Assembly: GCF_031598375.1 (NCBI RefSeq)
Contig: NZ_CP123872.1
Coordinates: 186,001 to 250,000, forward strand
Reading direction: 5' to 3'
DNA length: 64,000 nt
From: Temperatibacter marinus
Lineage (GTDB): Bacteria > Pseudomonadota > Alphaproteobacteria > Sphingomonadales > Kordiimonadaceae
Every line of letters begins with the position of its first letter. Within the stretch, counting starts at the first letter, position 1. Below are positions 3,495 through 29,402 of this stretch, piece by piece. The translations under genes were made by a program, and so were the position numbers. The notes beneath the pieces are model-generated. The model searched no databases. It was not told where the DNA came from and saw only the letters and a list, made by a program, of their open reading frames with translations.

Positions 3495-4673
3495 ATGGAT
3501 TTAACCGTAGAACAGCAAAAGATTCTTTCTGGCGGTGAAGGGCCTGTCTTAGCGAAATGTCTTCAAACATTAGTGACCTATGGGCGCGCCTTTAATGCTG
3601 CCCGGCTTGTCCCAATAAAAAGTGCTCACTTAACAGGCTCTTTCAGGATCAGCAGTTTTAATGGCTACTATCAATTATTAGAAAAAATAGCAGACGCTGG
3701 ACTTAAGGTGAAAGTACCAACGACCTTAAATCCACATCCAGGGTTTGATTTCGCTCTCCAGAATAGGCTTGTCTTCAAAGGGCAGAAACATCATGAAACT
3801 CTCATGGATCGGATTGGGGTCACCCCAAATTATAGCTGTGTCTGTTATTTTGATGCCAACGTTCCAGATTTTGGCGACACTCTTGGCTGGGCAGAATCGT
3901 CCGCAATTATCTATGCGAACAGCGTTATTGGGGCGCGAAGCAATCGCAACTCTGTCATGGTAGATATCTGTTTAGCTTTGACGGGCGTTGCCCCAGAATT
4001 TGGCTTTTTGCTTCAGGAGAACAGGGGCGGCGATCTTTTGATCCATTTAGACATCGAAACAATGGATGCGCCTGCCTTAGGATATCTTCTTGGAAAAGTC
4101 TGCGTTGAACGCACTCCAGTCATCGATAGTACATATAAATTTTCAGCCATCGAATTAAAAAATATGGGCGCAGCTATGGCCTCGAGTGGCGGAGTTAGTC
4201 TCTTTCATATTGTCGGCCAAACACCAGAAGCCCCAACTTTAGAAGCGGCCTTTCAAGCGCAGGAGCCTCGTGAAATACTCACCATTACACAAAATGACAT
4301 CAACGAAGTACGGGCTTCTCATCGGGTTCAAAAAGAAAGTAAAGCCGTCGCCTTTGGCTGTCCCCAAATGACCTTAGAAGAAGCTAATCATGTGGCTGAA
4401 TATTTTGTAGGAAAGAAAGTTAAAAAAGCGACGCTCTTTCATCTTATGCCTGACGCCTATGATCGCTTTGCGCAGTCCTATCTCGGAATAGAAGTGAAGA
4501 AAGCAGGAGTGAAAATTTACAACCACTGCCCCCTTGCTGGCATGAGTCTTAGAATTGGCATTGGGAAACAGCAAGTTCTGACCAATAGTGCGAAATTATA
4601 CTATTATCTCGACGGAACGAAATACGGAGATCTAGACGATCTTCTCAAAATCTGCGGGGTGGTAGACAGATGA
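3495..4673 (+). CDS. Aconitase X catalytic (large) subunit, DUF521 family
   Basis: Large subunit of a split aconitase-X enzyme, a dehydratase family that includes archaeal phosphomevalonate dehydratase and bacterial cis-3-hydroxy-L-proline dehydratase. The family hallmark is clear: a GWAESSAIIYANSVIGAR block at 131-148 followed by SNRNS (family TNREG). Candidate Fe-S ligands are C115 (in SCVCYF, matching the family TCxPY motif) and C345 (in NHCPLAG). The C-terminal TNSAKLYYYL segment matches the family end. The 392-residue length fits the large subunit of two-gene forms. Its stop overlaps the small-subunit start by four bases. Context with a TPP enzyme suggests dehydration of a hydroxy acid feeding a 2-oxo-acid step. 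The exact substrate is not inferable. Confidence 0.88.
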   Translation: MDLTVEQQKILSGGEGPVLAKCLQTLVTYGRAFNAARLVPIKSAHLTGSFRISSFNGYYQLLEKIADAGLKVKVPTTLNPHPGFDFALQNRLVFKGQKHHETLMDRIGVTPNYSCVCYFDANVPDFGDTLGWAESSAIIYANSVIGARSNRNSVMVDICLALTGVAPEFGFLLQENRGGDLLIHLDIETMDAPALGYLLGKVCVERTPVIDSTYKFSAIELKNMGAAMASSGGVSLFHIVGQTPEAPTLEAAFQAQEPREILTITQNDINEVRASHRVQKESKAVAFGCPQMTLEEANHVAEYFVGKKVKKATLFHLMPDAYDRFAQSYLGIEVKKAGVKIYNHCPLAGMSLRIGIGKQQVLTNSAKLYYYLDGTKYGDLDDLLKICGVVDR

Positions 4674-5122
4674 CAACTCTTCCTGGAAAAATAATTATCA
4701 ATGGCAGCGCTTCTGGGAAAGCCATCGTCACCCAGCAGCCAATAAATTTTACAGGCGCAATGTGCAACGCACAAAATTTACTCCCGGGCAAAAAGGCTGT
4801 CATCTACGATCAGCACCACGACCTTTACAAGGCCTCAACTGAAGGTAAAATTCTTGTTTTTCCAAGCTGCATAGGGTCAACCCACACAGGCCTTGTTCTT
4901 CTGGATCTTGTGAGCGAGGGCATCGGGCCTGCGGGCATGATTGTACAAAGCGCAGATAGCCTGCTTGTCTCGGGCATTGTTCTCGCTGACGTTTGGTTTG
5001 AGAAAACAATCCCAATCATCGAATATTCTGGAAGTGATTTATTTGACCATATTCAATCAGGCCAGCGCTTGACTCTTGAGGATAAAACCGGAAACATCCT
5101 CATAGACAATTCTATTCTATAG
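4670..5122 (+). CDS. Aconitase X swivel-domain (small) subunit, DUF126 family
   Basis: Small partner of the preceding gene, supplying the mobile swivel domain. GKILVFPSCIGSTHTG at 59-74 corresponds to the family GKxxxxPxxxGSssgs signature, with S70 at the position of the conserved catalytic Ser. The following Ser-Thr run is here Thr-His-Thr, a departure from the usual serine-rich turn. GPAGMIVQSADSLLVSG and the C-terminal ADVWFEKTIPII also follow the family pattern. The ATGA overlap with the large subunit indicates translational coupling and a fixed 1:1 ratio. It is 150 residues, normal for stand-alone DUF126. No T-rich terminator follows, only a 7-bp inverted repeat (TTCTGAA/TTCAGAA, 5142-5148 and 5161-5167). 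Confidence 0.88.
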   Translation: MTTLPGKIIINGSASGKAIVTQQPINFTGAMCNAQNLLPGKKAVIYDQHHDLYKASTEGKILVFPSCIGSTHTGLVLLDLVSEGIGPAGMIVQSADSLLVSGIVLADVWFEKTIPIIEYSGSDLFDHIQSGQRLTLEDKTGNILIDNSIL

Positions 5123-7753: not shown

Positions 7754-8419
7754 CTAAAGAGGTGCTTCGGCGCCTCTTTTTTTTATAGAAAAAGCCGCCC
7801 TATGCCTTACAAATAACTGACCGATATAGTTCAGCATAACTTGCTCTGCATCTGTCCTGTTTTTCTGTGTTCCAATTAACACATTCAGCCATAAACCATC
7901 GGCTAAAGCTGTTAAAGTATCAGCAATGCCTTTCGCTTCCATATTTTCATACTCACCCTTAACAATGAGGTCTTCAATAAGGGAAACAAGGAGTGCTGTG
8001 CGCTCTTCCATTTTCTCACGGCAAATTTTTTGATAGGTAGGTCTCGCTTTCACTTCCCCCCAAAATCCAAACCAAACGGCCATTTTATCACGGCTCATGA
8101 TATGAGGGAGATAATCCGCCCTAATCAGGGCAGCCAATCTTTGTGCCGGTTCGTTCACCGACTTCTCTAGCGCTTCTCGCCAAGCACATTCATATTCATC
8201 TTGTATATAGAGAAGTGTTTCTCGCAGTAAATTATCCTTCGTTTCAAAATGAAGATTAATTAAGCCCTGACTCAGCCCAGCAAGCGTTGCAACGTCCGAA
8301 AGAGTGGTATCATTCAGCCCTTTTTTTGCAATGCATGTGATGGTCGCTTCGATCAATTGACGTCTACGATATCCTTTTGACGCTCTCCGTCTTATTCTAG
8401 CTTTATTGTCTTCAGACAT
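7754..8419 (-). CDS. TetR family regulator, BetI-like
   Basis: A 221-residue repressor. The frame is open further upstream, but ATG at 8417-8419 is chosen because AAGAGGTG lies just before it and the protein then begins with a short basic tail ahead of the helix-turn-helix. The HTH is in the segment TLSDVATLAGLSQGLINLHF, close to the BetI/TetR signature. The C-terminal domain (AVWFGFWGE, then ADGLWLNVL) matches the BetI-type ligand domain, whose founding member senses choline. The gene diverges from an oxidoreductase/demethylase operon, which it most likely controls. A perfect inverted repeat at 8485-8512 is the likely operator. Its final codons lie within the terminator of the convergent gene. 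Confidence 0.88.
   Translation of the reverse strand: MSEDNKARIRRRASKGYRRRQLIEATITCIAKKGLNDTTLSDVATLAGLSQGLINLHFETKDNLLRETLLYIQDEYECAWREALEKSVNEPAQRLAALIRADYLPHIMSRDKMAVWFGFWGEVKARPTYQKICREKMEERTALLVSLIEDLIVKGEYENMEAKGIADTLTALADGLWLNVLIGTQKNRTDAEQVMLNYIGQLFVRHRAAFSIKKRGAEAPL
7756..7784 (+). terminator. Rho-independent terminator inside the 3' end of the TetR gene
   Basis: AAAGAGGTGC-TTCG-GCGCCTCTTT forms a 10-bp stem (one G-U pair) closed by a UUCG tetraloop, followed by a run of eight T (7777-7784). It terminates the serine hydrolase transcript. The same bases encode the last residues of the convergent TetR protein on the other strand. Confidence 0.9.
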
Positions 8420-8484
8420 AATCACCTCTTGCTCAACCAATAGATAAAAATCATTGTAAAGTATAGAGTTAAATATATTTACTG

Positions 8485-8512
8485 AATGTCTATTCATTAA
8501 AAAGTAGACATT
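8485..8512. promoter_or_regulatory. Probable TetR operator in the divergent intergenic region
   Basis: AATGTCTA (8485-8492) and its exact complement TAGACATT (8505-8512), separated by 12 bases, lie between the TetR gene and the flavoprotein operon. Symmetry, centre-to-centre spacing of 20 bp (about two helical turns) and location fit a dimeric TetR-type operator acting on both promoters. A TATAAA at 8539-8544 just downstream could be the -10 of the rightward promoter. Confidence 0.55.
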
Positions 8513-8612
8513 GCATGCTGTTATTGGCATCTTTCCACTATAAAGAAGCGAGTCTTTGATTCATTTAACTCAGCAAGTTAGAGACCGTGAGCGATAATAG
8601 GAATAGTAAGTC

Positions 8613-10244
8613 ATGAAAAAGTATGATGCCATCGTTATAGGGGCTGGGCATAACGGCCTCACCAATGCAGCTTTCCTCGCAAAAGCTGGCCTTGATGTCC
8701 TGATGCTCGAGAAAAATGATTATATCGGCGGTGCTGCTGTCAGTCGCAATTTGCACGAAGACTGGGTCTATTCAAACTGTTCTTATGTTTGTTCTCTCTT
8801 TCGGCCGGAAATTTACCGTGCCCTAGACCTAGGGCGTCACGGCCTTCAAATTATCAACATCGGCGGCGGAGCAACATTGATGGAAAATGGCGACTTTCTA
8901 GGAGCCTACGAAGATCATGAAGTATTCCGCCGTGAAATTGCGCGTCATAGTCCAAATGATGTAGATGCTTATGACCGTTTTAATGTGGACATGGCTAAAT
9001 GGTGTCGTTTTATTCGTCCTTTTCTTTTGAGAACGCCTCCAGACCCGACAAGTTTCAGACCCCGCGATATTCAGGAACTAGTTTATTTGGCAAAACAGTT
9101 TTATGGCTTAGGTGAAAAAGATTGTCATGATTTTATGCGATTTTTCACCATCTCTGTAGCAGACTACCTGGATCAATATTTTGAAAGCGATGTTCTAAAA
9201 GCACATATCGCAGGATCGGGGATTATTGGGACTGGACTAGGTCCAAAATCTCCAGGTTCAGCATATGTCATGCTACATCATTATATGGGTGATATGGACG
9301 GCAGTGTAGGATCATGGGGTTTTGCACGTGGTGGAATGGGGTCCATATCAAAAGCTCTTGCGAGCAGTTTTCAGTCTCACGGCGGAGAAATGCGCACGAA
9401 AGCAGGCGTTAATCAGATCCTTGTAAAGAATAATAAAGTTAAGGGCGTCGTCCTAGACAGTGGGGAAGAAATATATGCGGATAAAGTTGTCTCTAACTTG
9501 GATGCGAAACGCACTTTTCTCACTTTGATGGATCCAAAAGATGCCGGTGAAAAAGTTGTTCGTTATGCAGAGAATTTTAAGATAAGAGGCTCTAGCGGAA
9601 AGCTTAACATTGCCCTTGATGGCCCTATCAAATTTGACGCTTTACCAGAAAATAGCCCTTTGGTGAATGGATTTGTCCATGTGACAGACAGTATGGATAG
9701 AATGGAGCGAGCCTACGATGATTGGAAAAACGGATCATGGTCGCGGGATCCTTATCTCGATATGCTTTTACCGACTTTCGCTGATCCTACCATGGCCCCT
9801 CCTGGTAAACACTTCATGAGTGTTTTTGTCCAATATTGCCCCCCTCACCTATTAGATGATCAAGACCAGGAAGTCGAATGGTGTGATAATAAGGTGAGTG
9901 AATTTGGTGACTGTGTCCTCAATCAAATTAGCAAATATTCTTCGAATTTTCGGGATTTGGTTCGCCATGTGGAAGTCCGCACGCCTCGGGAAATCGAAAA
10001 TGAAATCGGCTTAACTCAAGGGAATATTTTTCAGGGGGAATTGACCTTGGACCAGCTCCTCTTCAACCGGCCTTTTCCTGGTTATGCTCAATATCGTGGT
10101 CCTGTCAAAGGCATGTATATGTGTGGTTCTTCAACACACCCAGGCGGAGGGGTGATGGCAGCGCCTGGTGCGAATGCTGCACGAGAAATCCTAAGAGACA
10201 TGAAAGCACAAAATACTGTACCTTTAGATGACGGTGACGATTAA
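8613..10244 (+). CDS. FAD-dependent oxidoreductase, PYROXD2/phytoene desaturase-like (first of two)
   Basis: A 543-residue flavin amine-oxidase/CrtI-fold enzyme. The N-terminal Rossmann motif is IGAGHNGLTNAAFLAKAG (G10-x-G12-xx-G15) followed by E33 for the FAD ribose and GGAAVSR, the pattern of the PYROXD2 group. The C-terminal FAD motif is MYMCGSSTHPGGGVMAAPG near 500-520. No membrane segment is seen, so it is cytoplasmic. It is the first gene of a tight operon of four (gaps of 12, overlap 4, then 18 bases) with a second paralogue, a GcvT-like and a Rieske protein. It probably oxidises an amine or N-heterocycle intermediate. Its two neighbours make carotenoid synthesis unlikely. The substrate is unknown. 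Confidence 0.85.
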   Translation: MKKYDAIVIGAGHNGLTNAAFLAKAGLDVLMLEKNDYIGGAAVSRNLHEDWVYSNCSYVCSLFRPEIYRALDLGRHGLQIINIGGGATLMENGDFLGAYEDHEVFRREIARHSPNDVDAYDRFNVDMAKWCRFIRPFLLRTPPDPTSFRPRDIQELVYLAKQFYGLGEKDCHDFMRFFTISVADYLDQYFESDVLKAHIAGSGIIGTGLGPKSPGSAYVMLHHYMGDMDGSVGSWGFARGGMGSISKALASSFQSHGGEMRTKAGVNQILVKNNKVKGVVLDSGEEIYADKVVSNLDAKRTFLTLMDPKDAGEKVVRYAENFKIRGSSGKLNIALDGPIKFDALPENSPLVNGFVHVTDSMDRMERAYDDWKNGSWSRDPYLDMLLPTFADPTMAPPGKHFMSVFVQYCPPHLLDDQDQEVEWCDNKVSEFGDCVLNQISKYSSNFRDLVRHVEVRTPREIENEIGLTQGNIFQGELTLDQLLFNRPFPGYAQYRGPVKGMYMCGSSTHPGGGVMAAPGANAAREILRDMKAQNTVPLDDGDD

Positions 10245-10256
10245 AAACTGGAATGG

Positions 10257-11822
10257 ATGATGACAGAACAACAAACATATGATGCCATTCTAATTGGCGC
10301 AGGACACAATGGTCTTATCTGCGCGAGCTATTTGGCAAAAGCTGGCAAAAAGGTCCTTGTTCTTGAAGCTCAAGAGCAAGTTGGCGGTGCCGCCAGAAGT
10401 GAAAAATTGAATGGGCAATACACCCTCTCGCCATGTGCTCAATTCCTCGGTCCCTTAGAGCCCAAAATAGAAAAAGATTTTGGTCTTTCGATGAACAAGA
10501 ACCGCACGGTTCACGATAGTCTATTCATGACGGAAAATGCTGATCCAATCTCCATCAGAGATGGAAATCTTTCTGGGGATTTAAGCGCAAAAGACCTAAA
10601 AGAATGGCCAGCCTATCACAAGCAAGTTTGTGAATATGCTTCTGTCTTAAAAGTTTTATTAACTCATGCCCCTATAGATTTATTCAACGCTGATTGGGAA
10701 GATAAAAAAACTGCCTTAAAACTAGGATGGAAACTTAGGTTCGGTCTTGGTAAAGACGGAATGCGTGAATTCCTTCGGATTGCTGGCATGAACATATATG
10801 ATTGGCTTGATGAGCGCTTTGAAAGCCCCGAGTTGAAAGGCGCAATCGCCTTCGATGCCTGTCTTGGTCACTTCGCGGCTCCTCGCTCGATTGGCACCGT
10901 CTATACCTATCTTTACCGACAAGCCACGACTGCGTCAATTGGCACATTGAAGGGGGGAATGAACCGCTTCTTCACTCTGCTTTCAGAGCAATCAAAAAAG
11001 CTTGGTGTTGACATTCAAACAAAGAGTGCTGTGTCTAATGTCATAGTGGAAAAGGCTAAAGCGAAAGGCGTGACTCTTGTGGACGGGCGACAGTTCTTCG
11101 CGCCAGTGATCATCTCCAACGCGGACCCAAAGACGACCGTATTGGATATTGTGGGACCGCGTCATTTTGAGGCTGACTTTGTCAAGGGAATTGATAACAT
11201 CAGAATGCAAGGCACTACAGCGAAATTACACCTTCTTTTGGAAAATTGCCCTGACTTTAACGGGCTAGATCAGTCATCCTTAACCAACAGACTGGTCCTA
11301 ACAGATACGATCCGGAATGTAGAAAGAGCCTTTGATCCTATTAAATATGGGTCAATAGCAAAAAAGCCATTAATGGAAGTCCATATACCAACTTTAAGTG
11401 ACCCTTCTCTAGCGCCCAAAGGGCATCATATCTTAAGTGCTACCATTTCTTATGTTCCCTATAAGCTGAAAGGGGGATGGCATGCAGAGGCAAAAATGAA
11501 TCTTCGAAAAGCATGCATCGACCATCTGGCCCTCTACGCCCCAGACATTCATCGCTCAATAATTCATGCAGAGCTATATACGCCTGTTGATATTGAGAAA
11601 AAATTCGGCTTAAAAGGAGGGCACTGGCATCACGGAGAGATGGCTTTGGATCAACTCATGATGATGCGCCCCACTCCAGGTGCAGCTCAATATAGCCTTC
11701 CTCTTGATGGTCTATATCTTTGTGGAGCAGGCGCACATCCTGGCGGTAGCATCACAGGATTGCCTGGAAAATTAGCCGCAGAAGTGGTTCTATCAGACCT
11801 TTCAAAAGGAGAGTTGTCATGA
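10257..11822 (+). CDS. FAD-dependent oxidoreductase, PYROXD2-like (second of two)
   Basis: A 521-residue paralogue of the preceding gene. The FAD motif is IGAGHNGLICASYLAKAG (G14-x-G16-xx-G19), followed by E37 and GGAARS. The C-terminal motif is LYLCGAGAHPGGSITGLPG. The two proteins align over their whole length but are clearly diverged, so this is an old duplication and they may form a heteromeric enzyme or catalyse successive steps. Two ATG codons (10257, 10260) are possible starts. The stop overlaps the next start by four bases (ATGA), indicating translational coupling to the GcvT-like gene. Confidence 0.85.
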   Translation: MMTEQQTYDAILIGAGHNGLICASYLAKAGKKVLVLEAQEQVGGAARSEKLNGQYTLSPCAQFLGPLEPKIEKDFGLSMNKNRTVHDSLFMTENADPISIRDGNLSGDLSAKDLKEWPAYHKQVCEYASVLKVLLTHAPIDLFNADWEDKKTALKLGWKLRFGLGKDGMREFLRIAGMNIYDWLDERFESPELKGAIAFDACLGHFAAPRSIGTVYTYLYRQATTASIGTLKGGMNRFFTLLSEQSKKLGVDIQTKSAVSNVIVEKAKAKGVTLVDGRQFFAPVIISNADPKTTVLDIVGPRHFEADFVKGIDNIRMQGTTAKLHLLLENCPDFNGLDQSSLTNRLVLTDTIRNVERAFDPIKYGSIAKKPLMEVHIPTLSDPSLAPKGHHILSATISYVPYKLKGGWHAEAKMNLRKACIDHLALYAPDIHRSIIHAELYTPVDIEKKFGLKGGHWHHGEMALDQLMMMRPTPGAAQYSLPLDGLYLCGAGAHPGGSITGLPGKLAAEVVLSDLSKGELS

Positions 11823-13024
11823 CCCTTCCCGTCTCAAAAAATCATTATAAAGAAGGTGCCCGCAAAACCCCTTTTTATGACCGACAAAAAGAATGGGATC
11901 GTGTGAACAAATGGCACCGTTGGGCTGATTATACAGTCCCTGATTATCTTGAAAGTGTCTCCAAAGAATATTTTTCCATACGCAATAGTGCGAGCCTCTT
12001 TGACCTCACACCAATGGCAAAATATTCCATTAAAGGGCCTGATGCTCTTGACTTCTTAAACCGCATGATGGTCCGGGATATGACTAAGATTAAAACAGGG
12101 CGGGTTGCTTATTCTGTCTGGTGTGATGATCAAGGACAGGTAATAGACGATGGAACTATTTTTCGGTTTGCTGAAGATCACTATCTCCTTTGTGCTCAAG
12201 AGAGGCAACTAGAAGTATTAAAGCGAAATGCAATTGGTTTTGATGTCACTTTTCAAGAAGAAACCGATGCAATTGCCGCCCTTGCCTTTCAAGGACCTGT
12301 CACTTGTCGAATTCTTAAAAATATGGGCCTTGCTGATATCGAAACATTAAAACCCTTTGATCTAAGGTTCTTCGATTTTGGCGGTGAACAGTTGATGATT
12401 AGCAGAACAGGCTATACTGGTGAACTTGGTTATGAAATGATGATTACGCCGCAGAAAGCCCTTGCCCTTTGGGATGCCATCATGACAGCCGGTAAAGACT
12501 ATACCGTCCGCCCAATAGGCACAGATGCGCTAGAAATTGCCCGTGTTGAAGCAGGCTTTCTTATGGCAGGCGTTGACTTTGCATGTGCCCATGAGACAAT
12601 CCGTCCTGGCCATACGCGCAGCCCCTATGAGTTAGATCTTGGTTGGCTTGTGAACCTAGATAAAGAAGCTGTCTTCAATGGCCGTAGAGCCTTGATGAGA
12701 GAGAAAAAAGAAGGCAGTCGATATAGATTTGTCAAACTTGATGTTGAGGGCAATAAAACCGCGTGCAACGCCTATCTCTTTGACAAGCTGGATGGCAAAA
12801 CAATCGGCGCCGTGAGCAGTACAACTTGGGGACCAAGCGCGAAAAAGAATATTGCTTTTGGGTATGTAGACATGCCTTACGGCAAGGCTGGAGACACCAT
12901 TTGGGCGGAAATTTTTTATCAAAAAGAGCTAAAGTGGAACCGCGTTTGGGCCAAATGTGAAGTCGTGGACAAACCTTTTTGGGATCCCGCGCGACGGCGC
13001 CAAACACCTCCTGCAGATTGGTGA
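11819..13024 (+). CDS. GcvT-fold aminomethyltransferase/demethylase family protein
   Basis: A 401-residue protein with the folate-binding GcvT fold: the RTGYTGELGYE block (196-206), GTDALEIARVEAGF at about 238-251, the D110-D111 pair at the position of the conserved folate-contacting Asp, and a C-terminal barrel domain ending in YFDMPYGKAG-like sequence. Relatives act as glycine cleavage T protein, as the dimethylsulfoniopropionate demethylase DmdA, or as O-demethylases. No gcvH or gcvP is nearby, so a role as canonical GcvT is unlikely. The ribosome site AAAGGAGAG overlaps the upstream gene. In this operon it probably transfers a methyl or C1 group from the substrate to tetrahydrofolate. Which methylated compound is used cannot be read from the sequence. 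Confidence 0.85.
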   Translation: MTLPVSKNHYKEGARKTPFYDRQKEWDRVNKWHRWADYTVPDYLESVSKEYFSIRNSASLFDLTPMAKYSIKGPDALDFLNRMMVRDMTKIKTGRVAYSVWCDDQGQVIDDGTIFRFAEDHYLLCAQERQLEVLKRNAIGFDVTFQEETDAIAALAFQGPVTCRILKNMGLADIETLKPFDLRFFDFGGEQLMISRTGYTGELGYEMMITPQKALALWDAIMTAGKDYTVRPIGTDALEIARVEAGFLMAGVDFACAHETIRPGHTRSPYELDLGWLVNLDKEAVFNGRRALMREKKEGSRYRFVKLDVEGNKTACNAYLFDKLDGKTIGAVSSTTWGPSAKKNIAFGYVDMPYGKAGDTIWAEIFYQKELKWNRVWAKCEVVDKPFWDPARRRQTPPADW

Positions 13025-13042
13025 GGAAACAAAGAGTATAAA

Positions 13043-14275
13043 ATGAAGGTCCAGGAAAAACGAGCATCAATGGGGGATTATGCGTCTCGTCCCCGCAGGG
13101 CAGATGGCAGCCAACCTGGCTGGTCACTACCCCGTCGTGCCTATAAAGACCCTGCGATCTATGAACAAGAAAAAGAAGCAATATTTTACAATAGTTGGAT
13201 CTTTGCAGGTCATGTGAATGACATCCCAGGGGTGGGCGATTATTTTCTTTATACCCTTCTTGACGAAACAGCCATCATTGTCCGTAGCAGCGAAAATGTC
13301 ATTGAAGCCTTTTACAATGTTTGCCGGCACAGAGGGTCAATTCTCTGCAAAGAAAGTAAGGGTTCAGTAAAAGGATTCACCTGTCCCTATCATGCCTGGA
13401 CTTACAAGCTTGACGGCAAGCTCATGACAAAACGGAGCATGGGGCAAGACTTTTCCCCTGAAGATTTTTCGCTTCATCCCTGTGCAATTGAAATCATTGA
13501 TGGCCTTATATTTGTTAATTTCAGTCCCACACCCAACAAGCTAGACCGTGCTAGAGAGGAATTAAAAGGCCCTCTCACACTCTTTGACTTTGAAGCAACA
13601 AAAGTCGCAGTTCATCGGAGCTATCCTATCGCAGCGAATTGGAAAGTAACGCTAGAAAATTATCAAGAATGTTACCACTGTACTCCGTCGCACCCTGAAT
13701 ATGCCCAGATGCATACACTGACTGTTCCTGAGCATCAGTTCGACAACTATCAACAACCCATGTTAGACAAAATGGCAGCTTGTGGTTTGAAACACTATGA
13801 AATTGATCAGCAATGGGATCACCAAGAAACTGGGCAAGAGCAATATGGCTACTCGCGTTATGCACTCTTTGAAACTCATCAAACTGGCAGCCAGAGCGGA
13901 GAGCCCATAGCCCCTCTTCTCGGCTCCTTAAAAGGTTTTGACCATGGTGCCTCAGATTTAAATATCGGTCCCTTTACCTATTTCCTTATCTATAATGATC
14001 ATGCTGTAATTTACGTTTTTACACCAACGGGACCTGACACTAGTCAATGTGATATTTACTGGTTAGTTCGGTCAGATGCGGAAGAAGGCTTTGATTACAA
14101 AATCGATGAGCTTACATGGCTCTGGCATGAAACTACCTTGGCCGACGAGCGTATTATTGTAGATAATCAGAAGGGGATTAACAGCCGCCTCTATAAACCA
14201 GGCCCGCTTTCTAAAATGGAATATTTAGTGGATCGTTTTTCTCATTGGTATCTGGATCAACTCCATAAAGATTAG
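13043..14275 (+). CDS. Rieske non-haem iron oxygenase, alpha subunit (GbcA/carnitine oxygenase-like)
   Basis: A 410-residue oxygenase. The Rieske [2Fe-2S] site is CRH (C94, H96) and CPYH (C114, H117). The mononuclear iron site is ENYQECYHCTPSHPEY with ligands H212 and H217, and an acidic third ligand expected in the C-terminal part. The NYQECYHC form is typical of the group acting on quaternary amines (glycine betaine, stachydrine, carnitine), where the enzyme removes a methyl as formaldehyde. That specificity is inferred. No reductase gene is adjacent, so electrons must come from a partner elsewhere. It is last in the four-gene operon; an AT-only stem (14282-14300) follows the stop. Confidence 0.85.
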   Translation: MKVQEKRASMGDYASRPRRADGSQPGWSLPRRAYKDPAIYEQEKEAIFYNSWIFAGHVNDIPGVGDYFLYTLLDETAIIVRSSENVIEAFYNVCRHRGSILCKESKGSVKGFTCPYHAWTYKLDGKLMTKRSMGQDFSPEDFSLHPCAIEIIDGLIFVNFSPTPNKLDRAREELKGPLTLFDFEATKVAVHRSYPIAANWKVTLENYQECYHCTPSHPEYAQMHTLTVPEHQFDNYQQPMLDKMAACGLKHYEIDQQWDHQETGQEQYGYSRYALFETHQTGSQSGEPIAPLLGSLKGFDHGASDLNIGPFTYFLIYNDHAVIYVFTPTGPDTSQCDIYWLVRSDAEEGFDYKIDELTWLWHETTLADERIIVDNQKGINSRLYKPGPLSKMEYLVDRFSHWYLDQLHKD

Positions 14276-14407: not shown

Positions 14408-14449
14408 GACAAAATTAGGGACAAAATTAGGGACAAAATTGGGGACAAG
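14408..14449 (+). repeat. 12-bp tandem repeat carrying the ribosome-binding site
   Basis: GACAAAATTAGG occurs twice in tandem, a third time as GACAAAATTGGG, then a partial GACAAG. The last unit provides GGGGA about seven bases before the ATG at 14453, so copies of a ribosome-site-like unit are stacked upstream. Copy-number slippage would shift the distance between promoter and start in 12-bp steps. Confidence 0.75.
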
Positions 14450-19242: not shown

Positions 19243-20097
19243 CTATTCCTTCCTATTTGCTGGCATTACCTTTAAAACACCACTCATTCCTGAAACGAGT
19301 GCTTTTGGAGGGTGAAGGATCTTCGCCCGAATTTCAAACGTTTGGCTGGCTGGGTCAATATAAGGATTTTTATACTGCAACCGTGCCTGAAACAGGCCCT
19401 CAATTTCATCAAGTTGAATGAAGACATCCATGCCGATGGATGCTTTTGTAAATAAATGAGACGGTAGAAAGGCTTTTATAAACAATTTAGAATTATTCAC
19501 GAGGTCTAGCAAAGGGTCGCCGGGACTTGCCGTCTGAAAACGCCGAGAATATCTCTTAATGATCTGACCTGAAAAAGGTGCTTGTATGGAGCAATCCTTA
19601 ACACGTAATTGACTTAATTCATACTGCCCTTCTGCCTGAGTAAGAGCTGCTTCAGCTAGCTGAATATTATACTCACTTCCAGAATCATACTCTAATAATT
19701 CCTGCTCTGTCTTAAGAGTTGCACGAGCAGAATCCCGCTCGCCTTTAGATATTTGAAGGCTCGCTAAAGGTTCCTCACATGAAAAAACAACAAGCGGATC
19801 CCCTTTCTTAAAGGGGGTTCCTAATTCTGAGGGATAGTGAACTATCGTCCCAGCATATTTTGATGAGAGTGTCGCTGATTGAGCTGCTTCAACGAGCGCC
19901 CTGACCGTATGATCTTGGGCTTGGGCTCCTGTCATGGGTAGAACAAGAAATCCCAAAAAAGAGCAAAAAAGAAGCTGCTGAAGACGCCCATTGATCAGAA
20001 TATTCACTAAGATGGAAATAGGCCTTCTCTCTTCCAAGTCACTCAAATATCCACTACAGGTCTTTCGATTGCAGCGATGGGGGACTTTCAAAACCAT
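19243..20097 (-). CDS. Small periplasmic adaptor, HlyD/RND membrane-fusion type
   Basis: 284 residues from ATG 20095-20097, chosen because AAGAGAGG precedes it; an upstream GTG at 20118 lacks a ribosome site. A long basic N-terminal tail leads into a hydrophobic signal (about residues 39-60, ending GAQAQ). The mature part has two lipoyl half-motifs, a short coiled coil (about 110-160) and a barrel (KDCSIQAPFSGQIIKR; later SGMSGVLKV). It is short compared with typical HlyD or AcrA (about 380-470) and lacks a clear membrane-proximal domain. It is the second of three HlyD-type modules in this operon, lying between the TolC-like and GAF-HlyD genes. Confidence 0.8.
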   Translation of the reverse strand: MVLKVPHRCNRKTCSGYLSDLEERRPISILVNILINGRLQQLLFCSFLGFLVLPMTGAQAQDHTVRALVEAAQSATLSSKYAGTIVHYPSELGTPFKKGDPLVVFSCEEPLASLQISKGERDSARATLKTEQELLEYDSGSEYNIQLAEAALTQAEGQYELSQLRVKDCSIQAPFSGQIIKRYSRRFQTASPGDPLLDLVNNSKLFIKAFLPSHLFTKASIGMDVFIQLDEIEGLFQARLQYKNPYIDPASQTFEIRAKILHPPKALVSGMSGVLKVMPANRKE

Positions 20098-20209
20098 AAA
20101 ACCTCTCTTACTAAGCACATCTCAGTTCATTTGATAGCTAAACTCTTACCTTGTTAAAGCCATTAAGGACCAGCCAAAATACGTCAGACTGATCCTTTGT
20201 TGTTTAGTT

Positions 20210-21800: not shown

Positions 21801-24800
21801 CTAGGCAACCTCTCGCTGATTTTTGTCCAGGATTAAATCGCGTTTGAACTCAAACTGGTTTGAACTCTGTAAAATTTGATCTGAGAATTTTAATCTTTCC
21901 CCTTGTAGAGTAACTAGCTCTTCTTGAGGGAAGATACTTTCTCTTTTGGTTTGGTCTTCAATTGTAGCCGTTGCGATAGCAACAATATGATCAACCTTTT
22001 GGAGATGACTGCTCTCCTGCTGTCGTAAAGCACCAGATAAAACATCAGATGTTTGACCTGCATCTTCCTCCAATCGCTTTTCCTTCATGCCAAGATAGAC
22101 ATCCCCATCTATTGTCGTGATTTTAATTTCTAGACGGTAGTTTTTCTCAGAAATCAGGTCCATTTGACCTTCAAATTTCACTTGTTGGATAATTTTTTCA
22201 TAATCAGTGAGGCTCGCAACCCCGACGATAGAGAGAAGGCCTGTTTCCTGATCAAACGTGACTTCTATCCCGTCTGGGACATTCTCTATTATGAGCGCAC
22301 CGACACGCCCGCCTCCATCAACGGAAAGCATGACTTCTGCTTTAATCAGGTCAACGGATTTGACCATATCGATTTTGTCGAACTGAATATCCGCAATTAA
22401 AAAGCGAGACAGCGAAGAAGGCTTATCCTCTTGATCAAATTGAATTTCAATCAGACCATTTTGAGCCAATTGATTTCCATAGCCATTGCTCTCTTGAACT
22501 AGTGAGAGATCGCTATGAAGGCTCTCAAGGTTAGCAGAATCGTGGTGCCAAAGATATGCTGACCGGTCTATAGGAGGAAGGTCATTCCACTTACTATAAT
22601 CCTCGTAAAGATAGGTGTGCTCTTCTGCATCGACAGAATAACCATCACTGGATGTCTCTTCAATTAGATTGCCTAGAGCATCTTCAACTGAACCCGCAGC
22701 TATTGTGAGCTTACTATTTTGCTGCACTTCTTTCGGTTCGGGCGATAAAGTTGCCGTAAAGACATTTGGGTCATCAGTAGCCTTCAAATCACTTAAAGAT
22801 CCTCCCTCAGTGTGAATATCGTCAAGAGAAAAGCCATAGGGGCGCTCATCAAAAGTAAAGGTAACCCGCGACTGATCCCCCTCTTTCAAATCAGTTTTTT
22901 CAAGAGCAATGACAACTGAAGGGCCTTGAGTATCAATAACAATATTATCTTGATGATGACTGCTGTTTCCAGCCTCATCAATTGCAGTCACATCAACAGC
23001 ACAAGATCCGTCATCAAGTGAATGTTCTTCAGGTAAATCAACAGACCACCCACCTTCTTCATCTACAGTAACCTCACCTTCCTTTGAAGAATAGGTGATT
23101 CCATCAATGACTACATTCACATCGGTACCAATAGGTGCTTTGCCTGTCACAATAGGCGAGCGGTCTCTAGTGATTAACTCATCAACAGAGGGGTCGTTTG
23201 GTGCTGTGGTGTCTACTTTTATCTGCCCCTTAACAGCCGCTTCATTTCCGACTTTATCACGAGCAATCAGCTCAATTGAATGAACCCCATCCGATAACTT
23301 CTGATCTTCAGGGAGACGTAATCGCCAATTTCCATCTTTATCAATCACAACATCACCGTCAACAGAATGGTAGCTTTCCCCTTTGATCCTTATTGAAACT
23401 TCAGATCCAATTTCTGTCTTTCCGGTAATTAAAGGTGTGTTGTCGTTTGTCAATTGGTCAACAATTTCTAGACCTTCTGGAGGAATAGTATCCACCAGAT
23501 ATGTCAGGCTTTGAGCAACGTCATTATCATTTCCTGCCTGATCAAACACAGCGCCTTCTCTAACAAGAATTATCCCTTCACTTTCTTGAACATCTTGATC
23601 AGGCGTAAAACTCGCGTGATACACCAAAGGATTTAAGGGATCCTGAACAAGATTAGACAAAGACCCATGCTCTACAATTATGTCCGACAGTTCAAAGCCT
23701 GAAACAACTTCGTCGAAAGTAAAGGTTATCTCAGAGGTCTCCCCTTTTCCGATCAAATCATTCTCTACAGCGATTAAAACTGTAGGCTTTATGGAATCCA
23801 CAATGAACGACTCTTGAGTGGTTTCTCGATTGCCTGCTTGATCAATTGCAGTGATATAAGTTGGAATAGTCCCGTCCGGTAATGCATGTTCTTCAGGAAT
23901 AGTCAAAGACCAATTACCTAGATTATCAATCACAACCTGACCTGACTGTGACGTATAAGTCTTGCCGTCTACGGTTATGGACAAGGCTGTGCCTGGCTCT
24001 GTTGTGCCTGTTATAAGAGGGGTTGGGTCCTGTGTTATTTCCGTTTCCATTCGGGGTGCTGTCGGATCAAGCGTATCAATTGAATAGGTAGGGCCAAAAG
24101 AGTTACCATTTTGATTATTATTAGCATCCCAGACTGATCCTGCCTTCAACATGATCAGGTTGTCCGTCTCTTCCCTATGATTGTCCGGTGTAAAGATTGC
24201 AGTATAGACACGAGAATTTATCGGATCTTGTTGCAGGTTACTTAAGACGCCATTTTCAGCCAGCAAATCCTCAAGTGTAAGTCCCGTTACTTCTTCATCA
24301 AATGAAATAGTTACGATAGAACGTTCCCCAGAAGACAAACTCACATCGTCCATTGTAATCATCACACCAGGCCGGTCAGTGTCAATAGCATAAGACGCAC
24401 TCGTCGCCTGAGCGTTGGTATTCCCCGAGGCATCTGTGACACTACTGGCCGCAACAGTGATGACATTAGACGTGTCTTCAACAGAGGCCGTCGGCGTCAA
24501 TGTGGCTGTATACACCAGTGGGTTAGAGCCGTCCTGCACAAGGTTGGAGAGCGTGCCATTCTCGGCACTCACATCTGCGAGGGTGAAGCCAGTCACCGCT
24601 TCATCAAAGGTGAAGGTCACTGTTGTCGTCTCACCAATACTCAGAGATGTATCGTCCACCGTGATGGTTACACCAGGCCGGTCAGTGTCAACCGCATAAG
24701 ACACACTCGTCGCCTGAGCGTTGGTATTCCCCGAGGCATCTGTGACACTACTGGCCGCAACAGTGATGACATTAGACGTGTCTTCAACAGAGGCCGTCGG

Positions 24801-27800
24801 CGTTAATGTGGCTGTATACACCAGTGGGTTAGAGCCGTCCTGCACAAGGTTGGAGAGCGTGCCATTCTCGGCACTCACATCTGCGAGGGTGAAGCCAGTC
24901 ACCGCTTCATCAAAGGTGAAGGTCACTGTTGTCGTCTCACCAATACTCAGGGCAGTATCGTCCACCGTGATGGTTACACCAGGCCGGTCAGTGTCAATAG
25001 CATAAGACGCACTTGTCGCCTGAGCGTTGGTATTCCCCGAGGCATCTGTAACACTACTGGCCGCAACAGTGATGACATTAGACGTGTCTTCAACAGAGGC
25101 CGTCGGCGTTAATGTGGCTGTATACACCAGTGGGTTAGAGCCGTCCTGCACAAGGTTGGAGAGCGCACCATTCTCGGCACTCACATCTGCGAGGGTGAAG
25201 CCAGTCACCGCTTCATCAAAGGTGAAGGTCACTGTTGTCGTCTCACCAATACTCAGGGCAGTATCGTCCACCGTGATGGTTACATCAGGCCGGTCAGTGT
25301 CAACCGCATAAGACGCACTTGTCGCCTGAGCGTTGGTATTCCCCGAGGCATCTGTGACACTACTGGCCGCAACAGTGATGACATTAGACGTGTCTTCAAC
25401 AGAGGCCGTCGGCGTTAATGTGGCTGTATACACCAGTGGGTTAGAGCCGTCCTGCACAAGGTTGGAGAGCGCACCATTCTCGGCACTCACATCTGCGAGG
25501 GTGAAGCCAGTCACCGCTTCATCAAAGGTGAAGGTCACTGTTGTCGTCTCACCAATACTCAGGGCAGTATCGTCCACCGTGATGGTTACATCAGGCCGGT
25601 CAGTGTCAACCGCATAAGACGCACTTGTCGCCTGAGCGTTGGTATTCCCCGAGGCATCTGTGACACTACTGGCCGCAACAGTGATGACATTAGACGTGTC
25701 TTCAACAGAGGCCGTCGGCGTCAATGTGGCTGTATACACCAGTGGGTTAGAGCCGTCCTGCACAAGGTTGGAGAGCGTGCCATTCTCGGCACTCACATCT
25801 GCGAGGGTGAAGCCAGTCACCGCTTCATCAAAGGTGAAGGTCACTGTTGTCGTCTCACCAATACTCAGAGATGTATCGTCCACCGTGATGGTTACACCAG
25901 GCCGGTCAGTGTCAACCGCATAAGACGCACTTGTCGCCTGAGCGTTGGCATTGCCCGAGGCATCTGTGACACTACTGGCCGCAACAGTGATGACATTAGA
26001 CGTGTCTTCAACAGAGGCCGTCGGCGTTAATGTGGCTGTATACACCAGTGGGTTAGAGCCGTCCTGCACAAGGTTGGAGAGCGTGCCATTCTCGGCACTC
26101 ACATCTGCGAGGGTGAAGCCAGTCACCGCTTCATCAAAGGTGAAGGTCACTGTTGTCGTCTCACCAATACTCAGAGATGTATCGTCCACCGTGATGGTTA
26201 CACCAGGCCGGTCAGTGTCAACCGCATAAGACGCACTTGTCGCCTGAGCGTTGGCATTGCCCGAGGCATCTGTGACACTACTGGCCGCAACAGTGATGAC
26301 ATTAGACGTGTCTTCAACAGAGGCCGTCGGCGTTAATGTGGCTGTATACACCAGTGGGTTAGAGCCGTCCTGCACAAGGTTGGAGAGCGTTCCATTCTCG
26401 GCACTCACATCTGCGAGGGTGAAGCCGCTCACCGCTTCATCAAAGGTGAAGGTCACTGTTGTCGTCTCACCAATACTCAGAGATGTATCGTCCACCGTGA
26501 TGGTTACACCAGGCCGGTCAGTGTCAACCGCATAAGACACACTCGTCGCCTGAGCGTTGGTATTCCCCGAGGCATCTGTAACACTACTGGCCGCAACAGT
26601 GATGACATTAGACGTGTCTTCAACAGAGGCCGTCGGCGTCAATGTGGCTGTATACACCAGTGGGTTAGATCCGTCCTGCACAAGGTTGGAGAGCGTGCCA
26701 TTCTCGGCTGAGATGTCCCCTAGACTAAAGCCAGTCACCGCTTCATCAAAGGTGAAGGTCACCGTGGCTGTCTCACCGTCAGTAAGGGATGTATCGTCCA
26801 CCGTGATGGTTACACCAGGCCGGTCAGTGTCAATAGCATAAGACGCACTCGTCGCCTGAGCGTTGGCATTGCCCGAGGCATCTGTAACACTACTGGCAGC
26901 AACAGTGATGACATTAGACGTGTCTTCAACAGAGGCCGTCGGCGTCAATGTGGCTGTATACACCAGTGGGTTAGAGCCGTCCTGCACAAGGTTGGAGAGC
27001 GTGCCATTCTCGGCTGAGATGTCCCCTAGACTAAAGCCAGTCACCGCTTCATCAAAGGTGAAGGTCACTGTGGCTGTCTCACCAATACTCAGGGCCGTAT
27101 CGTCCACCGTGATGGTTACATCAGGCCGGTCAGTGTCAATAGCATAAGACGCACTTGTCGACTGAGCGTTTGTATTCCCCGAGGCATCTGTGACACTACT
27201 GGCCGCAACAGTGATCACGTTCGAGCTATCCTCTACCGATGCATTCGGTGTTAATGTGGCTGTATACACCAGTGGGTTAGAGCCATCCTGCACAAGGTTG
27301 GAGAGCGTGCCATTCTCGGCACTCACATCTGCGAGGGTGAAGCCAGTCACCGCTTCATCAAAGGTGAAGGTCACTGTGGCTGTCTCACCAATACTCAGGG
27401 CCGTATCGTCCACCGTGATGGTTACATCTGGAATGGATGTAGCAACCGTATAATTGTCACCAGAGGTTGCTTTATTGCCAATACCATCTTGATCCAGCAC
27501 ACCGCCTTCAGCAAGGGTAATCACATTACTACTATCATCTACATCCACATCTGGCGTAAAAGTAGCCGTATAAACCAGTGGATTTGATCCATCTTGCACC
27601 AAGTTAGACAGTGTTCCATTCTCTGCTGTTAGATCCCCCAGGAGAAAACCAGATATGGATTTATCAAAAGTGAAAGTGACCGTTGCAGTCTCTCCGGCCA
27701 AAAGGTTTTGGTCACTCATAGAGATGACCACTTTGGGTGTATTAATAACTTTAACTGTTGCAATCGCAGTATTTGAAACAGGCGTATCGCTGCTGTTCAA

Positions 27801-29402
27801 AAGAGTCACTGCAAAAGTCCGATCCCCTGAGGTGGGTTTAAAATTAGACTCAGGCTCATACTCTAACCGTTCGATCAGGGCACGAAGACCAGCTTCATCA
27901 AATTTATTCCCATCTACACGGACGATTGTTATACCTTCACTACCATCGTACTCAACCCGGTAGTCTACTCCATTATAACTGACAGTTCTTGAGGTTGCGA
28001 CCTGAAGATCCGCGGGCATTTTGGAATCAAAAATATAAAGGCTTGGTCGACTTTGCCCTGCATTATAATCCGTGATCCCAGTGGTCTTGATGTCGACTTT
28101 GTAAATATCATGTTCCAAATTGAGTGAATATCCATCATCGGGATCTATCAGCGACACAGCTTCTCGGTCCACAGAGTTGGTTTCATAGTGCCCCGCAAAG
28201 TCAAGCATAGAAGTCCCTGCATCAAAATCTAACAGGCTAGACACTTCACGGAAATCATACTCATTTTGATCATTCTCAACAGTGGGAATAACACCAGGCG
28301 ACTGACCATCATTTACATTATAGCCATCATTGATATCGGAGCCTTCATAAGTATCACGCAGTCCATCTCCGTCTGTGTCAGTCCACCCATGCGTTAGGGA
28401 AAGGCCTCCCTCAACACGATCCCCAATGCCATCCTCATCGCTATCCCCGTCCAAATAATCCGAAGACCCTCTACCATCTGTGTCATGCAATGTCGGGGGT
28501 GTAACAAGTATATGAGCATAGGCATCATCAAGACCGTCACCATCTGCATCAACTCCGCTCGGCGCAATATATCCCGCTGTGGACTGCCACTCTATATTAT
28601 CTGTGATACCGTCATTATCACTGTCTAAGTCCAACGAGTTAATAACACCATCGAGATCATTATCGTCCGTGCCCTCAGTCACATCAAGGATACCGTCATT
28701 GTCATCGTCAATATCGACTGAATCTAAGACACCGTCTCCATCTGTATCAATACCTAAGGCAAATTGAGCCGTCACAGTAACTTGGTTTGAATTCCCATCA
28801 GCATCTGACACGGCCCCTGCAGGTACGGCAATAGTAAAGCCCGGTGAAGATACTTGTTGAGCACCAACACTCAACGGTGCAGCATTCGATGCTGTAAAGA
28901 CCGCTCTATAGAGTAATGGATTATCTGGGTCTTGTTCTAAATCCGCGATTATCCCATTAGACACTTGAATATCCTCAATAGTAAATCCTGTAACAGGTTC
29001 ATCAAAGGCGAAAGTAACCACTGTACTTTCTCCATAAGCTAAATCTGTTTTCTCAAGGGAAATAACCAGAGTTGGAACGCCTGTGTCGATGGTTTGCGAA
29101 GCGGCATTGCTCCTTTCAATTCCAGTATTGCTGTCCTCTTCTGTCACCTCTTGTGCCATCGCTTTCGTATGAGTGAGAAGAGCCGGTTCTGAAACTTTTC
29201 CACGCGCAGCATTTGGGAAAGAACTCATTTCCTCAAGAGCGACTGTTTGATGGGGTTCAACATACTCATCAACCGTGGCTGCCATAGCCCCGTCAAACAT
29301 CAGGCGGGGCTCGAGGGCAATTTTTGATGATTCAGATTTTAACCTAGATTTCTTATTTTCGACAACAGACTTGCAATTATTTAACGTGACGGATTGGCTC
29401 AC
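21801..29402 (-). CDS. Giant repetitive surface protein with LEPR-type N terminus, calcium-binding repeats and Ig-like repeats
   Basis: 2533 residues starting with GTG (29400-29402) after TAGGAG. The N terminus has no standard signal peptide but carries [10 protein letters not shown] (30-39), a motif seen at the N terminus of very large exported proteins. Then: an Ig-like domain (about 108-215), an Asp-rich thrombospondin type 3-like calcium-binding region (about 218-385), a linker domain (to about 560), a diverged Ig-like repeat, ten 102-residue Ig-like repeats of Big_12 type that are nearly identical, a diverged copy, alternating Ig-like units ([10 protein letters not shown] type) and further Big_12-like units, and a unique C-terminal domain (about 2230-2533). 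No RTX nonapeptide or typical C-terminal type I signal is seen. It is the presumed adhesin cargo of the export proteins downstream. Confidence 0.9.
24370..27430 (-). repeat. Array of ten near-identical 306-bp repeats within the giant gene
   Basis: Ten consecutive units of 306 bases each encode a 102-residue Ig-like domain starting VTITVDD and ending DTDRP. Units differ at only a few positions (Ala/Ser at SLS/ALS, ETTT/ETAT, Thr/Ala near SGNxNAQ), and silent changes are also few. Diverged relatives flank both ends. Such DNA-level identity means recent tandem duplication or gene conversion, and copy number probably varies between strains. The repeats are also a likely place for assembly collapse. 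Confidence 0.95.

Follow-up and report, generated by a model that had tools for sequence, protein, structure and literature searches.

A four-gene operon of Temperatibacter marinus probably, on balance, strips methyl groups one by one from a quaternary ammonium (betaine-like) nutrient. It lies in a stretch of 64,000 nucleotides, here called the window, which covers positions 186001–250000 of a single-contig genome of 3.18 Mb. Four open reading frames (ORFs), all on the + strand, stand there in a tight row at 8613–14275 and encode two flavoproteins, OxA (8613–10244, 543 aa) and OxB (10257–11822, 521 aa), a GcvT-fold protein (11819–13024, 401 aa) and a Rieske oxygenase (13043–14275, 410 aa). The first two genes are 12 bp apart, OxB and the GcvT gene share a 4-bp ATGA overlap and 18 bp separate the GcvT and Rieske genes. 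The four-gene operon described in an earlier note on this DNA is thus borne out, and its view of a methyl-removing operon with a demethylase-type Rieske enzyme and a GcvT-fold protein is supported. None of the five proteins considered (the four above and a TetR-family regulator) reaches the NCBIfam cut-off for the name that it resembles best. Serial N-demethylation with folate is likely as a class of function. From gene order, domains, conserved partners and ligand motifs we infer all of the reactions, how OxA and OxB share the work, the route of the C1 unit, the repressor ligand and the substrate.

The enzymes and their proposed reactions

Rieske enzymes of the GbcA/Stc2/CntA kind attack nitrogen substituents of a quaternary substrate, and GbcA and Stc2 release the methyl group as formaldehyde. 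In the proposed pathway the Rieske monooxygenase would hydroxylate one N-methyl of the quaternary nitrogen, yielding formaldehyde and a tertiary amine. A flavin amine oxidase cannot attack a quaternary nitrogen. OxA and OxB would then oxidise the remaining N-methyls to the iminium in steps two and three, and their GcvT-fold partner would move the methylene to tetrahydrofolate, and the trio would thus be the equivalent, in three genes, of dimethylglycine/sarcosine dehydrogenase. Formate is one form in which the C1 unit may leave, via enzymes such as PurU. The primary amine would pass to a class-III aminotransferase; beta-alanine, for example, would be converted by AptA to malonate semialdehyde and by MMSDH to acetyl-CoA. 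If true, this adds a bacterial route from methylated nitrogen compounds to ammonia and C1 units.

The Rieske oxygenase matches the Rieske (54.4, cut-off 20.3) and Ring_hydroxyl_A (109, cut-off 24.9) domains. The cluster ligands are C94, H96, C114 and H117; the iron ligands are H212, H217 and probably D368, the last read by eye from an alignment to 3vca. E209 sits at the bridging place, where CntA presumably also has a glutamate. The likeness to GbcA, Stc2 and CntA thus extends over the architecture, the ligands, the closest profile and the solved relatives, among them the proline betaine demethylases 3vca and 4qup. The Rieske profile that fits best is GbcA, but its score of 293.4 bits falls well below the NF058607 equivalog cut-off of 670, and no reductase of the GbcB/CntB type adjoins the gene.

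The GcvT-fold protein, likely a folate-dependent C1 acceptor to judge from its domains, matches GCV_T (PF01571) with 206.3 bits (cut-off 25.6) and PF08669 with 40.8, and so carries the folate-binding domain. Its best profile is trimethylamine N-oxide (TMAO) demethylase (Tdm), with 242.9 bits over positions 383–760 of 763. The match is to the C-terminal, GcvT-like half of Tdm; the N-terminal half is absent here and the cut-off of 1100 is missed. The cut-offs for glycine cleavage T-protein are missed too (229.7 vs 300 for NF001567; 197.7 vs 235.85 for TIGR00528). Solved relatives are GcvT, TMAO demethylase, the alpha subunit of sarcosine oxidase and dimethylglycine dehydrogenase (DMGDH), with sequence matches including 5l46, 1pj5 and 1vrq. 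In dimethylglycine and sarcosine dehydrogenases the GcvT-fold half passes the oxidised methylene to folate. By analogy, the operon would resemble DMGDH, DMGO and SoxA in having one part that oxidises the N-methyl with a flavin and another that carries its carbon to tetrahydrofolate. It differs in that the parts are three separate genes and the flavin part, of the CrtI/amine-oxidase fold, is present twice, in place of a fused DAO-type domain.

OxA and OxB are flavin adenine dinucleotide (FAD) flavoproteins of the CrtI/PYROXD2 type, with 43.2 and 64.7 bits against PF01593 (cut-off 19.8). OxA is the conservative member of the pair, at 58–80% identity to its counterparts in six other trio loci, and OxB the variable one (37–47%). 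For both, CrtO is the best profile, at 275.5 and 226.2 bits far short of the cut-off of 1000; crtI family scores are 125.7 and 110.6 (cut-off 238.1). The predicted models have pLDDT values of 91.1 (OxA) and 91.4 (OxB) and adopt the CrtI/CrtD fold. Closest to both is 4rep, the gamma-carotenoid desaturase CrtD, with Z 33.8 and a root-mean-square deviation of 3.0 over 477 residues for OxA, and Z 33.6 and 3.2 over 467 residues for OxB. Two uncharacterised archaeal oxidoreductases follow in the ranking; renalase, putrescine oxidase and monoamine oxidases score Z ~22–26. A DAO-type match is confined to residues 5–47 of OxA and 9–45 of OxB and, the ORFs being separate, no DAO-type FAD domain is fused to the GcvT domain. 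The most fitting reading of OxA and OxB is as the oxidase part of a folate-linked demethylase split over several genes; one flavoprotein for each remaining methyl and a single heteromer are both possible arrangements. Compared with known betaine routes, what appears to be new is this split oxidase module of the CrtI/PYROXD2 type.

We tentatively suggest that OxA–OxB–GcvT is a heteromeric N-methylamine dehydrogenase, folate-linked, not described before and built on flavoproteins of the CrtI/PYROXD2 type, convergent with dimethylglycine/sarcosine dehydrogenase and paired with different Rieske demethylases according to the betaine, with human PYROXD2 as a relative that carries out this chemistry on N-methyllysines and methylamines. 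On this view OxA and OxB may represent a demethylase of a new kind and could give a clue to the role of the human protein. Going by the label given in the earlier note, OxA, OxB and PYROXD2 may form one CrtI-like group; no chain named PYROXD2 occurs among the 13 PDB matches of OxA or the 50 fold rows listed, which excludes nothing. If PYROXD2 is like OxA and OxB, N-methyl amines are its expected substrates. The published associations examined are mostly with N-methyl amines, mainly N-methyllysines and methylamines, the locus being associated with N6-methyl- and dimethyllysine (PMC8109053), and little is said to be known of its precise function (PMC8777681). The associations also include syringoylglycerol, N-acetyl-isoputreanine and one unnamed metabolite, which are not known as N-methyl amines. 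PYROXD2 differs further in being mitochondrial. Among the open-access titles and abstract openings listed by our literature search, nothing was on point for a link between PYROXD2 and demethylases, which is weak evidence of absence.

Conservation of the OxA–OxB–GcvT trio

An OxA profile at E ≤ 1e-150 found matches in 25 of the 385 genomes searched in the class and in 11 of the 398 searched in the phylum, with the own genome in both counts. Outside that genome there are 36 matches (27, and 9 new ones), found without use of the Rieske gene. Flanks of 1.5 kb were examined for all 36. OxB adjoins OxA in 26 of the 26 close relatives (at least 538 bits against the window's OxA), and the gene order is therefore beyond chance. 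An OxA-like gene does not by itself signal the trio, because 9 of the 10 distant matches (397–459 bits) stand without OxB. Wider flanks, examined for 26 of the 36 matches (three supplied by genome G128 and two by G073), show OxA, OxB and GcvT together in 22; one of the others is cut by a contig end and three are distant OxA-like genes without the partners. This count of 22 in 26 is flattered, since six of the 10 matches lacking wide flanks are of the distant kind. With Rieske-found loci and plasmid records included there are 35 trio loci, always with the genes on one strand. The spacing in the 30 with valid gaps is −14 to 62 bp between OxA and OxB and at most 177 bp between OxB and GcvT; gaps were left out for L031, L036, L125, L134 and L135, where the OxB query matched the OxA ORF. 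The survey of operon conservation that the earlier note had proposed thus sharpens its reading: OxA–OxB–GcvT recurs as a module of its own. To judge from these gene rows, the real unit is best seen as a three-gene module to which a Rieske gene has been added, rather than a chance row of four.

An association with the Rieske type is also seen when the search starts from the Rieske gene. An OxA relative occurs in 20 of 56 loci with a nearer Rieske gene (on 55 contigs, L008 and L009 being overlapping pieces of one) and in 0 of 24 with a farther one (Fisher P 0.0004). Among 384 other genomes of the class, OxA is present in 24, the nearer Rieske type in 12 and both in 4, where 0.75 are expected (P 0.004). 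Seven loci (L021 8299–9900, L028 8296–9870, L089 7603–9192, L042, L027, L020 and L090) hold a single distant OxA relative (345–394 bits) that is divergent from the Rieske gene and without OxB, a second, simpler pairing.

Other partners recur around the trio. Of the 22 trio loci, 12, from 8 of 16 genera, have a class-III aminotransferase within the retrieved sequence, the genera counted by hand. Against an expectation of 0.044 per 20 kb, taken from the seven such genes of the present genome, the enrichment has P ~1e-7 by genus under a crude model that takes no account of clustering or of relatedness above genus level. TetR relatives (score at least 90) occur in 14 of the 22 loci and polyamine-type ABC parts in 8, one of them (L161) counted on the strength of a weak ATPase match (124 bits). 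In a single case, L091, the formyl-tetrahydrofolate deformylase PurU (312 bits, cut-off 286) lies directly beside the GcvT gene of the trio. The annotated cluster of Parasedimentitalea marina contains a TetR regulator, OxA, OxB, an aminomethyltransferase family protein, an aminotransferase, an FAD-dependent oxidoreductase, a solute-binding protein, an ABC transporter and at least two Rieske genes. Rhizobium sp. SL42 has a similar set, its displayed stretch containing one Rieske gene, and in Fuscovulum ytuae an aminotransferase, the trio, a pair of Rieske genes and an importer of the polyamine type form a single row.

Distant OxA-like genes (430–439 bits) without OxB directly follow polyamine-type ABC genes (PotH 138, PotG 261 bits) in L111 and L112 (genomes G282 and G179); the amine link may therefore reach beyond the trio. 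An ORF resembling an S-adenosylmethionine methyltransferase lies beside or near the Rieske gene in L036, L031, L033, L123 and others of the Rhodobacteraceae type, which is odd for a demethylation pathway. The Kordiimonadaceae cluster L008/L009 includes an APH-fold kinase like the N-terminal part of PRK06148 (L009 11220–12356; a related longer ORF is at L008 2494–4830), which could act on a hydroxylated amine.

Substrate and rival explanations

Beta-alanine betaine is our leading guess for the substrate of the window's operon, and a tentative one. In the Rieske tree, from which 4 of 59 rows (<350 aa) were dropped, the window's enzyme forms a clade with those of L008, L009, L010 and L088, supported at 100/100. 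In L088 the Rieske gene stands in a row with AptA (668, cut-off 500), CoA-acylating MMSDH (692, cut-off 448.5) and an MFS carrier. AptA and MMSDH together are the classical way from beta-alanine to acetyl-CoA, and for this reason beta-alanine betaine is put first. MMSDH also precedes a 60% identical Rieske gene in L022, which was left out of the tree as it is split in two frames, and in L010 a carrier-like ORF cut by the contig end precedes the Rieske gene (by eye). The genome of T. marinus has an AptA-type omega-aminotransferase (642, cut-off 500) elsewhere and one MMSDH (646, cut-off 448.5). On bacterial degradation of beta-alanine betaine the open-access titles and abstract openings listed by our search contained nothing on point, again weak evidence of absence.

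Several observations weigh against this substrate, or against betaine demethylation as a whole. MMSDH and AptA are common enzymes, and L009, of the same Rieske clade, has a GntE-like aminotransferase, an acyl-CoA dehydrogenase and an acyl-CoA ligase, with no MMSDH. The window's operon contains neither an aminotransferase nor a transporter. Ten of the 22 trio loci show no class-III aminotransferase, and where one is present its type varies by cluster (GntE-like, PRK07036, AptA); substrates may therefore differ between clusters. Only 4 of the 22 trio loci have a Rieske gene within the sequence retrieved around them. The contrast between nearer and farther Rieske loci is weakened by the fact that 14 of the 24 controls fall outside Pseudomonadota; inside it, 0 of 10 vs 20 of 56 yields a P of just 0.026. 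The closest relatives of the window's OxA are in L047 and L160, yet the Rieske enzyme of L047 belongs to another clade than the window's and in genome G005, the source of L160, the trio occurs without a Rieske relative at E ≤ 1e-60. The trio may therefore not be tied to one substrate, and it seems to pair with Rieske enzymes of more than one type. Against one fixed pathway speak also L132–L134 and L139, which keep the trio without another recognised partner, the genes not obviously related that accompany it in L160, and the distant OxA-like matches, where OxB adjoins in 1 of 10.

The folds of OxA and OxB are nearer to a carotenoid desaturase than to amine oxidases, which also counts against the demethylation reading. 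Taken further, with CrtO as best profile and CrtD as best fold, it would make the two proteins carotenoid-type desaturases or ketolases in a neighbourhood where GcvT and Rieske genes are incidental. We consider this very improbable: the likeness covers the fold and the FAD-binding layout, but the CrtO cut-off is not approached, OxA and OxB are strictly linked to a folate-fold protein, and the profiled neighbours are amine, C1 and transport genes with no carotenoid gene among them, although no search was aimed at crt genes. Glycine betaine catabolism is a more serious rival, if an unlikely one. The Rieske enzyme would be a divergent GbcA, with OxA, OxB and GcvT replacing DgcAB and sarcosine oxidase in a route ending in glycine. 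GbcA as best profile, the BetI-type domain of the regulator, two BCCT carriers in the genome and the lack there of a GCV_T protein of SoxA or DMGDH size would all fit. The distance to the GbcA cut-off (293 vs 670) does not, nor does PaaE as the only PF00175 reductase; class-III aminotransferases, so often found with the trio, serve no step in a route that ends in glycine, and in L088 AptA and MMSDH stand in one row with a Rieske gene of this clade.

The glutamine-synthetase-like ligases and PotF-like proteins of other clusters speak against beta-alanine betaine and for polyamine-like substrates. The same chemistry might demethylate an N-methylated polyamine or N-methyllysine, perhaps derived from diatom silica polyamines or algal laminine. 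PotF-like binding proteins are found in L120 (424 bits) and L009 (351 bits; cut-off 636), ligases beside the trio in L135 and ~5 kb off in L120, and an amine oxidase in L162; the methyllysine associations of the human PYROXD2 locus noted above (PMC8109053) point the same way. We nonetheless rate such a substrate as rather unlikely for the window: the cut-offs for PotF, gamma-glutamylputrescine synthetase and the other glutamine-synthetase models are all missed, none of these genes is in the window's operon, and its Rieske clade is linked to AptA and MMSDH in L088. The N-methyl heterocycle that the earlier note had offered as one of two guesses (homarine, trigonelline, N-methylproline or proline betaine would be examples) now appears improbable. 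The solved Rieske relatives 3vca and 4qup, presumably proline betaine demethylases, old yellow enzyme-type flavoenzymes in some clusters and a pair of AcnX (aconitase X) genes upstream at 3495–5122, distantly like hydroxyproline dehydratase (179 bits, cut-off 700), would suit it. The AcnX pair, however, has no match in the 80 Rieske loci L008–L087, and a terminator-like site stands between the upstream genes and the end of the regulator gene. Homarine breakdown is said to run through Mgd (PMC13390433), for which no search was made here. Class-III aminotransferases fit ring products poorly; together with the polyamine-type importer and the beta-alanine breakdown pair they suit an acyclic amine whose final form is a primary amine.

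Regulator, genome and neighbouring features

A TetR-family regulator with a BetI-type C-terminal domain is encoded divergently from the operon, on the − strand at 7754–8419. The mechanical ORF is 7754–8530, but a start at 8419, with AGAGGTG upstream, is more likely than one at 8530, giving 221 aa and leaving a 193-bp intergenic region. The regulator would keep the operon repressed until it binds the substrate or a product. It matches PF13977 with 62.4 bits (cut-off 27) and PF00440 with 41.3, and misses both BetI equivalogs (116 vs 118 for NF001978; 112.9 vs 201.3 for TIGR03384). The BetI label of the earlier note holds at domain level only, and the gene lies outside the 8613–14275 span. An inverted repeat with 8-bp arms at 8485–8512, AATGTCTA-12-TAGACATT, between the regulator and the operon is a weak candidate operator; its arm length was matched in 47 of 500 shuffles, and it was not seen upstream of the 12 related genes examined. 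Promoter-like sites are fewer than by chance (9 vs 12.0 in shuffles), and no Rfam family reaches the gathering threshold in the window.

Elsewhere in the genome there is no second PF00848 protein besides the window's Rieske enzyme. Three proteins match GCV_T: the window's, one at 2968205 (263.6 bits, 383-aa frame) and a weak one at 159410 (276-aa frame). The latter two are GcvT-sized and YgfZ-sized, too short for DMGDH or SoxA, and the GCV_T search found no DMGDH/SoxA-type protein with a GcvT half; the claim that the two extra flavoproteins are foreign to the known glycine betaine route is supported. The single PF00175 reductase is PaaE (TIGR02160, 421.5 vs 420.8), in a row resembling paa genes by eye, and apart from it no GbcB-type (PF00175) cognate reductase was found in the genome. 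The Rieske enzyme may use another kind of partner; as no dedicated reductase was found, the electrons of OxA and OxB might feed it. Fer2 has five matches in the genome, PaaE among them. PurU is present, with 320 bits (cut-off 286).

One further row of the own genome, at 2466000–2480000 (L167), holds two glutamine-synthetase-like ORFs (by eye), a class-III aminotransferase (PRK07480, 663 vs 510) and a DAO-like oxidase; it looks like a gamma-glutamyl putrescine pathway.

The genes around the operon were considered as pathway members and rejected. These are the AcnX pair, a thiamine pyrophosphate (TPP) enzyme and an M20 peptidase upstream, a beta-lactamase-like gene and a ChaN-like gene. As with AcnX, no match to the ChaN-like gene was found in L008–L087, where the others gave scattered low scores: 65 bits for the beta-lactamase-like gene (L065), 67–178 bits for the TPP enzyme (L075, L082, L084) and only 32–33 bits for the M20 peptidase (L082, L086). 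The terminator-like site, at 7756–7779, follows the beta-lactamase-like gene and separates the upstream genes from the regulator's end. Downstream, between the Rieske gene and the ChaN-like gene, 3.4 copies of a 12-bp tandem repeat (GACAAAATTAGG) occupy 14408–14448. Farther along the window, ten copies of a 306-bp tandem repeat, 95% matching, lie at 24364–27426 inside a 2533-aa ORF (21801–29402, − strand), and a membrane-fusion-adaptor-like gene is found at 19243–20118; the ORF resembles a large surface protein built of repeats, which may have an exporter of its own.

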